Below, piece by piece: positions 44,839-50,043 of a DNA stretch of 51,458 nt; the first letter of the stretch is position 1, and every line of letters begins with the position of its first letter. The notes under the pieces were generated by a model, which saw only the letters and a list, made by a program, of their open reading frames with translations, made no database searches and had not been told where the DNA came from. The stretch comes from Alphaproteobacteria bacterium (GTDB lineage: Bacteria; Pseudomonadota; Alphaproteobacteria; Micropepsales; Micropepsaceae). The stretch covers positions 1-51,458 of the forward strand of contig JANXXU010000039.1 of the NCBI GenBank assembly GCA_025350465.1, given 5' to 3'. The translations under genes were made by a program, and so were the position numbers.

Positions 44839-45414
44839 ATGATTGTGCTGATCGACAACTACGACAGTTTCACCTGGAACCTGTTTCACTATTTGAGCCA
44901 GTTGGGCGCGACGGTCGAAGTCCATCGCAACGACGCGCTGACCGTCGACGATGTTATGGCCAAGCGTCCGAAGGCCATTGTCTTGTCACCCGGCCCCTGC
45001 GATCCCGACAAAGCGGGTATCTGCTTGTCACTCGTCGCCCGCGCGAGAGAGACCACCCCTATTCTCGGCGTCTGCCTGGGCCATCAGGCAATCGGCCAGG
45101 TCTACGGCGGAAAGATCGTGCGGGCACCCGCGCCAATGCACGGCAAAGTGTCGGCCGTTCGGCACGCAGGCAGCGGCGTGTTCAAGGGCCTGCCGGACCG
45201 CTTCAATGCGACCCGCTATCACTCGCTGACGATCGACCCGGCGACATTGCCAAACACATTGACGGTTACGGCGGAAGCCGATGACGGCGTGATCATGGGG
45301 ATCGCGCATCGCGAACATCCCGTACATGGCGTCCAGTTCCATCCGGAGAGCATTGCGACCGAACACGGGCATGCTCTCCTGCGCAACTTCCTCGATTTGG
45401 CGCGCGCCGCATGA
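44839..45414 (+). CDS. trpG: Anthranilate synthase component II (glutaminase)
   Basis: Supplies ammonia from glutamine to TrpE. 191 residues: [19 protein letters not shown], the nucleophile Cys in [13 protein letters not shown], and the His-Glu pair in [16 protein letters not shown]. Sequence is of the TrpG/PabA type and, as no separate pabA is seen, may serve both folate and tryptophan synthesis. The ATG at 44839 is chosen by homology; an in-frame ATG at 44767 would add 24 residues containing one Trp and the hairpin sequence. The stop overlaps the trpD start as ATGA. Confidence 0.95.
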
Positions 45415-47225
45415 CGAGCGATGTCTTACGGACACTCGTAGCCAAGGTCGCCTCCGGTGCATCGCTCAGCGGCGCGGAAGCCGCCGCCGCGTTCGACGTC
45501 ATCATGGATGGGCAGGCGGGCGAAGCGCAGATCGCTGCGTTTCTCACAGCCCTTCACATTCGCGGCGAGACCGTCGAGGAAATCACGGCTGCGGCCCGCG
45601 CAATGCGCGCGCGCGCCATCGCCATCGAAGCGCCTGACGACGCCATCGACACATGCGGCACCGGCGGTGACGGTTTGGGGACGTTGAATATTTCGACCGC
45701 CGCTGCAATCGTCGTCGCGGCTTGCGGGCTGAACGTGGCCAAGCATGGCAATCGCGCGCAATCATCGCAAAGCGGCTCGGCCGACGTCCTTTCGGCATTG
45801 GGTGTGAATATAGATCTCGCGCCGGGCGACGTTTCTCGCTGCATCTCCGAGGCGGGCCTCGGCTTCATGTTTGCGCCAGCACATCACAGCGCCATGAAGC
45901 ATGTGATGCCGGTGCGCCGGCAACTTGGGTTCCGCACCGTGTTCAATCTCTTGGGGCCCCTCGCCAACCCTGCGCGCGTTAGACGGCAAGTCGTCGGCGT
46001 GTTTGCCGACAAATGGATCGAGCCTTTGGCGCACGCGCTTTATGCACTCGGCGCCGAGCGCGCGTGGGTTGTGCACGGTCAGGACGGTCTCGATGAGTTG
46101 ACGGTGACGGGCGAGAGCCATGTTGCCGAGCTATCTCACGGCCAAGTTCGCCGTTTTGCCGTCAATCCCGCCGATGCAGGACTCGGCACATACCCGCTCA
46201 GCGCAATCCAGGGCGGCGACATTGCGAACAACGCTCGTGCGATCACCCGCTTGCTCGACGGCGAACGCGGCGCCTATCGCGACGTCGTAGCCCTCAATGC
46301 AGCCGCGGCGCTTCTAGTCGCCGGCAAAGCCGCGTCGCTAAGAGACGGCGCGGCAATGGCGATCGCAGCGCTCGAGAGCGGCGCGGCACGCGCGACGCTC
46401 GCGAAATTAGTCAGCGTCTCGAATGCCGGCGACCAGGGCGTGCTCGACAAGATCGCACTCTACAAACGCCGCGAAATTTCCGACGCCAAATTACGTGTGC
46501 CGTCGCGCGACGTCGAAGAGATGGCCAAGCGCGCGCCGCCAGTGCGCCCGTTCGCGGCAGCCTTGCGCGCGAGGATTGCGCACGGCTCGCATGCGTTGAT
46601 CGCGGAGATCAAGAAGGCCAGCCCCTCCAAGGGGCTAATCCGCGCCGATTTCGATCCCCCTGCCCTCGCCCGTTCTTATGAGACCGGTGGGGCCGCTTGC
46701 CTGTCCGTGCTGACCGATGGGCCATCGTTCCAGGGCGCGAAGGAGTATTTGACGCAAGCGCGCGTTGCTTCCAAGCTGCCCGTGCTGCGCAAGGACTTTA
46801 TGTTCGATCCGTATCAAGTGGTTGAAGCCCGTGCGCTCGGCGCCGATTGCATCTTGATCATCATGGCGGCCGTGAACGATGCAGAGGCGCGAGCGTTGGC
46901 GGATGCTGCGCGCACCTGGAACATGGAAGTGTTGGTCGAAATCCATGACAGACAGGAACTCGATCGAGCCGTCGCCATGCGCCCGACAATGATCGGGATC
47001 AACAACCGCAATCTGAAAACGTTCGAGACATCGCTGAGAGTTACCGAGGAATTGGCGCCGCTCATACCGAAGGAAATCTTGGTCGTGGCGGAAAGCGGCA
47101 TCAACACGAACGAGGATCTGAAACGCCTCGCGCGATCCGGTGTGCGTTGTTTCCTGGTCGGCGAGAGCCTTATGCGCCAATCCGACGTCGCATCGGCAAC
47201 GCGAGAATTGCTGGGCGCCGCATGA
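45411..47225 (+). CDS. trpDC: Fused TrpD-TrpC (anthranilate phosphoribosyltransferase / indole-3-glycerol phosphate synthase)
   Basis: One open frame of 604 residues joins two usually separate enzymes. Residues 1-338 are Trp[18 protein letters not shown] (80-96), KHGNR (111-115), [15 protein letters not shown]. Residues ~344-604 are Trp[24 protein letters not shown] (399-408), [21 protein letters not shown] (529-538) and VAESGI (559-564). The junction (SNAGDQG, about 46422-46440) has no stop codon; a GTG at 46440 sits exactly where stand-alone TrpC proteins begin, so internal initiation remains possible. TrpF is not in this window. The gene overlaps trpG and moaC by ATGA on either side. Confidence 0.92.
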
Positions 47226-48019
47226 CAAAGCTCACGCATACCGACGACGAAGGCCAAGCGCGCATGGTGGACGTCTCTGCAAAGGCCGCGACGGAGCGCG
47301 CCGCAACTGCTGAGGCCTTCATATGCATGGCACCCGAAACGCTGGCTTTGATCGCCGACGACAAAGTTGCGAAGGGCGACGTCCTTGCCGCCGCGCGCAT
47401 TGCCGGGATCATGGCCGCGAAGAAAACGTCGGACCTTATCCCGCTCTGTCACCCACTCAATATCTCGAGCGCAACCGTCGACTGCATGCTTGTCCCAGCA
47501 CCGGACGACGACGGACCGTCGGGCGTTCGGGTAAGAGCGACGGTAAAGGTCTCGGGCACGACCGGTGTCGAAATGGAAGCGCTGACCGCCGTGAGCGTTG
47601 CCGCGCTGACAATCTATGACATGATGAAAGCGGTCGAGCGCGGTATCGTTATCTCGGATGTGCGCTTGATTTCCAAGGAGGGCGGCAAGTCCGGCGTCTA
47701 TCGCGCGTCTCAATTGGCGCCGTTGCGCGCGAGCCGCCGACCCAATCTGGCTGTGTCGCACAAACCAAAGGCAAGCGAGGTGACGATCAAGACCGCCTTG
47801 CAAGTGCCCGCCAAAGATCACGCCGCGCGCCGCGACGCGTTCCGTCGCTTTATGTCGGCGCACGGCTTGACGGCGCATGCCTGGGCCAAGGATGCGGGAT
47901 TGCCGGTCGGCGCGATCTACAGCTTTCTGCATGGACGCACGCCCAGCCTGAACAAGACGGAAGAAGAAAAGCTCGCGGCGTCCGCAAAAGTCGACGTCCA
48001 AGATCTCTATCGCTCGTGA
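47222..48019 (+). CDS. moaC: MoaC (cyclic pyranopterin monophosphate synthase) with C-terminal HTH domain
   Basis: Residues 1-160 are a complete MoaC: K51 in [24 protein letters not shown] (72-82), [20 protein letters not shown] (112-131) with D133, and [10 protein letters not shown] (151-160) where the protein normally ends. MoaC rearranges the GTP-derived cyclic intermediate to cyclic pyranopterin monophosphate in molybdenum cofactor synthesis. Here 105 further residues follow: a linker (161-203) and a helix-turn-helix of XRE/S24-repressor type (204-265) with [32 protein letters not shown] and a closing [13 protein letters not shown]. The usual family length is ~160 residues. The start overlaps the trpDC stop as ATGA; moeA follows after 4 bp. 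Confidence 0.93.
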
Positions 48020-48023
48020 AACG

Positions 48024-49220
48024 ATGCTCTCGGTCGCACACGCTACGCAAAGAGTTCTCGCAAATCTAAAGCCCTTGGCGGGCGAACAAATTCCGTTGGT
48101 AAGTGCGCTTGGCCGCGTCCTCGCCAGCAGCGTTAGAGCCAAACGCACGCAGCCGCCGCTCGACGTCTCCGCGATGGACGGCTATGCGGTCAAGGCAAGC
48201 GACGTCGCAAAATTGCCCGCCAAGCTCAAAATTGTAGGCTCGATTGCAGCTGGGCAGATCTTTGCGGGCGCGATCAAGACCGGCGAGGCCGCGCGCATCT
48301 TCACCGGCGCGCCGGTCCCGCGCGGCGCCGACACGATCGTTATCCAAGAAAATGCGAAGGCAGAAGGCGCGACGGTCGAAGTCATCGAGGGCGCCGCACC
48401 GACGGGCAAACACATACGCCGTGCAGGACTCGACTTTCGCGACGGCGACGTCTTGCTGAACGCGGGGCACAAACTGACCGCGCGCGATATCGCGTTGGCG
48501 GCGGCCATGAATCACACGCGGCTCGACTGCCGTCGCCAACCGCGCGTTGCGATCCTAGCGACCGGTGACGAACTCGTGCCGCCCGGAACGGTGCCCGGCC
48601 CCGGTCAGATCGTGGCTTCGACATCGGCAGGACTCGGCGCTGACGTAATCCACTGGGGCGGCACCGTGCGCGATTTGGGAATTGCGCATGACAACATCAC
48701 TGAAATCCGGTTCAAGTCAGAAGCGGCCCTCGGCGCGGATCTCTTCATCACGTTGGGCGGCGCTTCCGTCGGCGACCACGATCTTATTCAGAAAGCGTTG
48801 GCCGAAGACCTCGATGTCGCTTTTTGGAAAATCGCCATGCGTCCGGGCAAACCCCTGATATTCGGACGCTACAAATCGGTGCCGTTTCTTGGACTCCCCG
48901 GCAATCCGGTGTCGGCGATGGTCTGTGCCCAAGTCTTTCTAAAACCCATGCTCTTAGCCCTCCTCGGTTCCTCGGAAACGGCACATCGCATTCGCGAGGT
49001 ACGGCTGACCTCGCCGCTTGCGGCGAACGACCAGCGTCAGGACTACATTCGAAGTCTGCTTCGGCCTTCTTCGGACGGCGGCGCCGAGGTCGAACCATTT
49101 CCCGTGCAGGACTCAAGCATGCTCCGTCCGCTTGCCGCCGCGAACGCTCTCATCGTGCGCCCACCAGGCGATCGCGCCCGCAACGTAGGCGAGCCCGTCA
49201 CCGTGATGACGCTGGATTGA
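48024..49220 (+). CDS. moeA: Molybdopterin molybdenumtransferase MoeA
   Basis: Inserts molybdate into adenylated molybdopterin. 398 residues: QPPLDVSAMDGYAV, GAPVPRGADTIVIQE, RVAILATGDELVPPG, GGASVGDHDLIQKAL, MRPGKPLIFGRYKSVPFLGL and LPGNPVSAMV are all present in the usual order. It lies directly behind moaC, from which it is probably translated by reinitiation. The 100 bp after it hold the LexA box of lexA, so lexA has its own promoter. Confidence 0.95.
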   Translation: MLSVAHATQRVLANLKPLAGEQIPLVSALGRVLASSVRAKRTQPPLDVSAMDGYAVKASDVAKLPAKLKIVGSIAAGQIFAGAIKTGEAARIFTGAPVPRGADTIVIQENAKAEGATVEVIEGAAPTGKHIRRAGLDFRDGDVLLNAGHKLTARDIALAAAMNHTRLDCRRQPRVAILATGDELVPPGTVPGPGQIVASTSAGLGADVIHWGGTVRDLGIAHDNITEIRFKSEAALGADLFITLGGASVGDHDLIQKALAEDLDVAFWKIAMRPGKPLIFGRYKSVPFLGLPGNPVSAMVCAQVFLKPMLLALLGSSETAHRIREVRLTSPLAANDQRQDYIRSLLRPSSDGGAEVEPFPVQDSSMLRPLAAANALIVRPPGDRARNVGEPVTVMTLD

Positions 49221-49260: not shown

Positions 49261-49275
49261 GAACAAGACTAGAAC
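49261..49275. promoter_or_regulatory. LexA box (SOS operator) of lexA
   Basis: GAAC-AAGACTA-GAAC is a perfect match to the alphaproteobacterial direct-repeat LexA operator (GTTC-N7-GTTC read on the other strand). It lies 46 bp before the lexA start, the expected place for autoregulation. Confidence 0.85.
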
Positions 49276-49320: not shown

Positions 49321-50043
49321 ATGCTGACCCGCAAGCAGTATGAACTCTTGATGTTCATCCACGAGCGGTTGCGTGAGACCGGCGTTGCTCCCTCCTTCGA
49401 CGAGATGAAGGAGGCGTTGGACCTCAAATCAAAATCCGGAATTCATCGGCTTGTGACCGCGCTGGAAGAGCGCGGCTTTCTGCGCCGCTTGGAGCATCGG
49501 GCTCGCGCGCTAGAGGTGGTGAAGCTGCCGGAGAACTCAAGCCAGCCTAAACCGCGCTCGCGCACGGTCACGCCCGCATCACCGTCGCGATCGTCCGGCT
49601 TTGGCGTCATCGATGGCGGGTTGAAAGTGCCTCAAGCGCGACCGGCACCTTCGTCGCGCCGAATGATGGAGGTGCCGATCTTGGGGCGGATCGCGGCCGG
49701 CACTCCGATTGAAGCTTTGCAGAACCCGACCGAGGTCTTGGCTGTGGCTGACTCCCTCCTCGGCCCCGGGGAGCATTACGCGCTTGAGGTCAATGGCGAC
49801 TCAATGATCAACGCCGGGATCCTCGACGGCGACACGGTGCTCATTCAGCGTGTTGACGACGCCCAGTCCGGTGAAATTGTCGTGGCACTCGTCGACAATA
49901 TCGAGGCGACGCTGAAGCGCCTTCGCAAGCGCGGCAGCCAAGTCGCACTCGAGGCGGCAAACCCCGCGCACGAGACGCGCATCTTTGGCCCCGACCGCGT
50001 CAAGGTTCAGGGACGCTTGGTCGGTTTGATCCGCCGCTACTGA
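49321..50043 (+). CDS. lexA: SOS repressor LexA
   Basis: Repressor of DNA damage genes; self-cleaves when stimulated by RecA filaments. 240 residues: winged-HTH domain (1-70, [17 protein letters not shown] and [20 protein letters not shown]), a long linker rich in Pro/Ser/Arg (71-115), and the S24 peptidase domain with cleavage site Ala126-Gly127 (RIAAGTPIE), Ser161 ([10 protein letters not shown]) and Lys199 (EATLKRL). The long linker is usual in alphaproteobacteria. ATG 49321 is fixed by homology. Its end overlaps the convergent comEC by 44 bp. Confidence 0.97.

Follow-up and report, generated by a model that had tools for sequence, protein, structure and literature searches.

Does the gene between trpC and moeA in this genome encode a MoaC enzyme that carries a DNA-binding domain of its own, and what might such a domain be for? 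The window, that is, the whole stretch of DNA analysed, comprises 51,458 nucleotides of an alphaproteobacterial contig affiliated with the Micropepsaceae. A single ORF on its forward strand (47222-48019) encodes, without internal stop codon, a protein of 265 amino acid residues. The ATG shares four bases with the stop codon of trpC (ATGA, 47222-47225), and moeA starts at 48024, 4 bp past the stop codon of the moaC-HTH gene. The locus is composed of the following features:

44839..45414, forward strand: trpG (glutamine amidotransferase; GATase in Pfam, E 1.1e-60), upstream gene of the presumed operon
45411..47225, forward strand: trpD and trpC fused in one ORF of 604 aa (Pfam, NCBIfam), its stop overlapping the moaC start by 4 bases
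47222..47710, forward strand: MoaC catalytic domain, residues 1-163 (Pfam, NCBIfam, PDB relatives, conserved residues)
47711..47812, forward strand: linker, residues 164-197, basic and of low confidence in the model
47813..48016, forward strand: XRE/Cro/C1-type helix-turn-helix (HTH) domain, residues 198-265, predicted from family profiles, an AlphaFold2 model and structural matches
47906..47929, forward strand: predicted recognition helix, residues 229-236, the third HTH helix in the predicted structure
48024..49220, forward strand: moeA (MoeA_N, MoCF_biosynth and MoeA_C in Pfam)
49261..49275, forward strand: GAAC-N7-GAAC box before lexA (motif match)
49321..50043, forward strand: lexA (Peptidase_S24 and LexA_DNA_bind in Pfam)

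The initial annotation had described a native gene without frameshift, and both the continuous frame and the spacing to moeA bear this out. The uninterrupted fusion, with no stop after about residue 160, is shared by nine of the ten congeners searched, and the remaining one (G003, 64% complete) was without match. TrpC ORFs of at least 621 aa in these nine congeners suggest that trpD and trpC are fused there too. A local error or frameshift is ruled out by the identical fusion in the congeners and in 58 of the 96 genomes of the order. Since the majority of these assemblies are fragmented into many contigs, two neighbouring genes might have been joined artificially during sequencing or assembly; this explanation is nevertheless refuted, as the 58 fusions include those of the single-contig genomes G020, G062, G104 and G105.

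A profile of the extension matched 75 of the 96 genomes of the order; among those with a completeness of 90% or more and a contamination of no more than 5%, it matched 52 of 60. The 75 comprise 58 genomes with the fusion, one with a degenerate fusion (G064), 15 with the HTH as a separate gene and one in which it lies at a contig edge and was kept apart (G096). The 58 fusions include G023, split over two contigs, and G024, with an in-frame TAG inside the HTH; G023 and G027 are absent from the locus table and were counted as fusions from other comparisons. In a sample of the class, the extension was matched in 24 of 385 genomes (E ≤ 0.001), and 21 of the 24 belong to other orders. Four of these 21, from the families f91 and f116, encode MoaC-HTH fusions adjoining trpC, moeA or both, and 13 others, upon inspection, showed no MoaC. 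Within the orders holding these two families, the extension was found in three of five and two of four genomes, always as a MoaC fusion; the fifth such locus belongs to G477. The architecture thus recurs elsewhere, in the 58 genomes of the order and in two other families of the class. In the reference genomes G037 and G057, which belong to other families, the gene between trpC and moeA encodes a MoaC that lacks the extension. An arrangement with moaC and lexA after trpC also occurs on marine metagenome contigs, according to the available text of PMC2395257.

The MoaC part is complete. Residues 15-155 matched PF01967 in Pfam (E 2e-54; 183.7 bits versus a cut-off of 27), and residues 1-163 matched the MoaC subfamily in NCBIfam (E 3.6e-67). 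With the full-length model TIGR00581 the protein scored 199.5 bits versus a curated cut-off of 141.5. The PDB relatives 4pyd/1ekr were retrieved by sequence search with E values of about 1e-48. All residues of the conserved MoaC set (R26, K51, H77, E117, E119, D133 and K136) are present in the window protein; judging by E. coli MoaC, we take this set to include the catalytic residues, with presumed catalytic roles for K51, H77, D133 (D128 in E. coli) and K136 (K131 in E. coli). None of these four varies among the fusions of alignment A1, of which there are 26. When 68 rows were compared with the window at 20 conserved MoaC positions, 63 were identical to it, four had one change and G064 had many; this table counts the window twice and includes some unfused MoaCs. 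The window's genome holds one MoaC copy. From the residues we infer a working enzyme, a cyclic pyranopterin monophosphate synthase. Known MoaC members are hexameric, and the domain probably offers an oligomeric platform for the HTH. The full-length AlphaFold2 model, built from 10 sequences, is poor (mean pLDDT 58.8) and low also in its MoaC part.

In the full-length model, pLDDT is below 50 across residues 140-197, which take in the linker. Two short motifs recur in the linker; both were written after seeing the sequences, so that their contrast with shuffled linkers (500 shuffles) is descriptive. The first, P..[LIV][MLIVT].[ED] with a gap of one or two residues, was found in the linkers of 32 out of 60 fusions, compared with a mean of 0.9 and a maximum of 5 after shuffling, and in 15 of the 17 rows of a standalone set that takes in G064 (mean 0.8, highest 4). 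The second, around RSAGM, occurred in nine of the 60 fusions and in 12 of the 17 standalone rows (shuffle means 0.1, highest 2). The window linker has diverged and is without the first motif in its stated form.

For the C-terminal domain the evidence is of several kinds. The initial annotation had expected a Pfam HTH family to match, which held at the family level only: the window copy stayed below the cut-off, its match being to HTH_26 at residues 208-263 (E 0.094 with the whole protein, 0.054 with the extension alone), while 21 of 23 extensions reached E ≤ 1 with HTH_26, and one relative, L017, scored above the curated cut-off of this profile (27.5 versus 22 bits, E 3.9e-6). The best family-level E values for other profiles were 1.8e-6 for HTH_31 and 2.8e-4 for HTH_3. 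A PDB sequence search with the extension profile returned nine distinct sequences at E ≤ 1, the best being a TetR protein (0.0097), with an XRE protein at 0.42 and DdrO at 0.87 also among them; this list is uninformative. The weak profile matches L092-L097 were set aside, their sequences reading by eye as TetR-type regulators. An AlphaFold2 model of residues 199-265 predicted five helices with a mean pLDDT of 93.7. Most of its structural matches were XRE/Cro/C1 proteins, with VIA Z scores of 9.8 for C.AhdI, 9.2 for SinR, 8.9 for DdrO, 8.5 for P22 c2 and 8.4 for 434 Cro; values below about 13, and thus also the best one here, may reflect only a common arrangement of helices in helical models. 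In a Foldseek search with the HTH model, the best match had an E value of 0.01, and thus none reached 0.001. Since the Foldseek result is weak and the Z scores lie below the safe level, the assignment of the fold rests on the family profiles and the helix pattern together. On this predicted fold, helix 229-236 would be the DNA-reading helix. Altogether, the claim of a native MoaC-HTH fusion stands, with a complete MoaC (1-163) and an HTH at about 200-265 that is kept in relatives.

An HTH fold may serve as a structural or protein-protein domain. The HTH-like domains of the enzymes HEPD, MPnS and HppE were among the structural matches and cyanase was in the Foldseek list; these domains are not known to bind DNA. 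The recurring linker motifs, too, could bind a partner protein. Against such a non-DNA-binding role speaks the net charge, as the mean over 60 fusions is positive both for the domain (+4.7) and for the linker (+4.1), the window having +3 and +6, respectively, and so does the persistence of the domain alone after loss of MoaC, described below, which shows that it is not merely a subdomain of MoaC. We consider this role unlikely.

The relationship to phage-type repressors deserves separate mention. In the search of the order, once matches at the trp/moaC locus are set aside, the extension profile scored highest with G071:C153 (65.6 bits), a protein consisting of an HTH and a Peptidase_S24 domain (Pfam E 8.1e-10), in agreement with the S24-repressor-like character first ascribed to the HTH. 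This top non-MoaC match might indicate a domesticated prophage-repressor HTH that represses the operators of incoming phages and so confers immunity. Conservation across the order, however, suits a housekeeping role, and in the best eight of 15 rows the phage-record matches of the whole protein, all to unannotated records, cover the MoaC part only. An immunity function thus appears very improbable.

The most informative observations come from genomes in which the fusion is not intact. At the trp locus of 15 genomes (16 loci, two of them in G118) the HTH is a separate gene between trpC and lexA, an interval from which moaC and moeA are missing. In 15 of the 16 loci there is a start codon (GTGA or ATGA) at -4, counted from where the trpC stop ends; in G019 an ATG lies at -1. 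The two trpG-trpD-trpC-HTH-lexA loci of G118 (L072, L073) differ in sequence and may stem from duplication, transfer or contamination. The standalone protein of G028 had no plasmid match.

Intermediate states were found as well. In G064 (L105:5057-5884, reverse strand) a degenerate MoaC precedes the HTH in a protein of 209 aa; Pfam still recognizes MoaC (E 3.2e-10), although the N-terminal part is lost and K51, R59, K67, H77, D133 and K136 are changed or missing. No MoaA match was found in this genome. The proteins of G118 (both loci) and G108 have 172-184 aa and a short remnant before the HTH, which Pfam did not recognize as MoaC at E ≤ 1. That it derives from MoaC is deduced from hhalign, where it aligned with MoaC columns 28-148, the middle missing, at a probability of 95.9 and an E value of 5e-9, using a MoaC profile that includes the G064 row. 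The other 13 standalone loci encode proteins of 129-139 aa in which no MoaC was seen.

Codon comparisons indicate that purifying selection acts on most of the standalone HTH genes. By the Nei-Gojobori method, its dN/dS was 0.03-0.16 in nine of 11 standalone pairs and 0.22 and 0.48 in the other two, while TrpC ranged between 0.08 and 0.32 in the same pairs; the 11 pairs were chosen and are not independent, and some dS values are near saturation. In two pairs among G118 and G108 the part before the HTH had values of 0.50 and 0.33 versus 0.15 and 0.13 for the HTH. A decaying leftover is thereby ruled out for most standalone genes, the two weaker pairs apart. When the separate-gene state was mapped on a 48-row tree built from TrpD, TrpC and LexA, a minimum of three changes was required, which may be gains as well as losses, and a single clade for the 16 standalone rows was rejected (p-AU 4.6e-5). 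The standalone proteins of G019, G083 and an 11-row clade have a common N-terminal stretch. For part of the changes, one deletion followed by a regain of the fusion in G115/G113 is possible.

In 11 of the 75 HTH-positive genomes, profile searches found no match to MoaC, MoeA_N or the MoaA C-terminal domain. The HTH gene is in place after trpC in ten of them and at a contig edge in the eleventh, G096. Seven of the 11 have a completeness of 90% or more and a contamination of no more than 5% (G028, G083, G107, G110, G112, G117 and G118); the remaining four are G096, G098, G114 and G119. Five standalone-HTH genomes (G019, G069, G080, G106 and G108) encode an unfused MoaC elsewhere. These moaC genes, three of them in G106, lie on another contig near moeA and mostly near moaA, and were possibly regained. 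Conversely, MoaC is present and an HTH match absent in seven of the 96 genomes (G016, G022, G036, G066, G087, G092 and G095), which means that MoaC does not need the HTH. G025 is without MoaC and HTH; in G068 moeA is present at the locus, but neither moaC nor the HTH. Together with the MoaC-only genomes, these two with neither show that the HTH is dispensable.

This distribution bears on the role first proposed for the HTH, a link of molybdopterin synthesis to transcription. As the reason for the HTH this proposal found no support: the domain occurs in the 11 genomes without MoaC, MoeA_N and MoaA matches, which rules out a dependence on the cofactor as a general rule, and it is intact where MoaC decays (G064, G118 and G108). 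A molybdenum-linked role is possible in genomes with the intact fusion. The same observations count, indirectly, against a trigger enzyme, in which the activity or a ligand of MoaC would switch the HTH and cofactor synthesis would control transcription. Such an arrangement would fit the intact MoaC residue set and the adjoining moeA, and PMC8249747 describes enzymes that have gained a DNA-binding domain and act as regulators; yet the HTH is kept in genomes with no match to MoaC, MoeA or MoaA and with the degenerate MoaC of G064, and the seven MoaC-only genomes likewise argue against it. We regard a trigger enzyme as rather doubtful.

We therefore favour, as a reasonably probable reading, a working MoaC with a tethered C-terminal XRE-type HTH that acts as a DNA-binding regulator, its job being separable from cofactor synthesis. 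A flexible tether would hold the HTH on the enzyme, and a hexameric MoaC would present several HTH copies. The HTH would regulate genes independently of cofactor synthesis, the simplest target being its own operon trpG-trpDC-moaC-moeA; both DNA binding and this target are deduced from the fold and the gene order. In relatives giving up the cofactor, MoaC would have been pared down or deleted, with the HTH surviving as a small gene coupled to trpC.

A tie with trp is hinted at by co-occurrence: IGPS (TrpC) was found in 73 of the 75 HTH-positive versus seven of the 21 HTH-negative genomes, a comparison confounded by physical linkage and assembly gaps. The HTH-positive exceptions are G096 with its contig edge and G015, listed as 100% complete. 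Five genomes listed as at least 95% complete have neither an IGPS/TrpC nor an HTH match (G022, G092, G099, G100 and G109; contamination 6% in G092 and 8% in G100) and are possibly tryptophan auxotrophs.

Upstream of trpG, alignments viewed by eye showed no dyad common across the genus, and no operator was found. A promoter-like block around TGTGCA precedes trpG in seven of 15 standalone loci (G119, G112, G110, G080, G117, G069 and G107), and a block around GGTTGTG does so in seven of ten aligned genomes of the genus, the window not being among them. Of the 68 loci with lexA, 67 have a GAAC-N7-GAAC (or GTTC-N7-GTTC) box in the 200 bp that precede this gene. We take this to be the alphaproteobacterial LexA/SOS box consensus. 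lexA probably has its own promoter, and because of the box it is an unlikely partner in the trp-moa-moe operon.

The related genomes constitute a natural experiment that displays the intact fusion, a degenerate enzyme with HTH, a remnant with HTH, the HTH alone, MoaC alone and neither. With it one can test the idea that a regulatory domain originates within an enzyme of metabolism and persists after that enzyme is gone. More speculatively, and with less than even confidence, we suggest that a transcription factor was born from an enzyme here: an HTH captured by moaC would have acquired a use of its own and outlived the cofactor pathway more than once, in some lineages first on a dead or shrunken MoaC scaffold (G064; G118 and G108), and would then have come to regulate the trp operon, or other genes, as an independent protein.

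Compared with MoaC proteins (TIGR00581, PF01967), the window protein shares the full-length domain, the intact residues and the place between trpC and moeA seen in G037 and G057, and differs by about 100 residues of linker and HTH past the NCBIfam match (1-163 of 265). MoaC with a second domain is also represented by MoaC/MoaB (PRK03604), MoaC/MOSC (PRK14499) and MoaC/MobA (PRK14500), whose partners are, by name, cofactor-related, whereas the partner here is an HTH; the window protein scored below the cut-offs of these three models, and among the fusion models listed in the NCBIfam scan none combined MoaC with an HTH. With the XRE/Cro/C1 repressors C.AhdI, SinR, DdrO, P22 c2 and 434 Cro the domain shares a predicted five-helix fold (Z 8.4-9.8 over 63-66 residues, below the tool's safe level for helical models), at 15-23% identity to these five, and it differs in standing behind an enzyme via a long linker. 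Among S24-type repressors, the HTH of L084 from G071 matched the extension profile with 63.5 bits and is joined to a Peptidase_S24 domain, which the window protein lacks. In the titles and abstract openings of one paper library no MoaC-HTH protein was described; the HTH protein in the available text of PMC13390414 is a MarR regulator and not a MoaC. A parallel exists in the trigger enzymes of E. coli with an added DNA-binding domain, for which the available text of PMC8249747 names BirA, NadR, PepA, PutA and PyrH. Like them, MoaC-HTH combines an enzyme and a DNA-binding-type domain in one chain, as judged here from sequence and predicted fold, and MoaC would join the enzymes that carry an HTH. 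In contrast to those trigger enzymes, the putative DNA-binding domain described here outlives the enzyme once the latter is lost.
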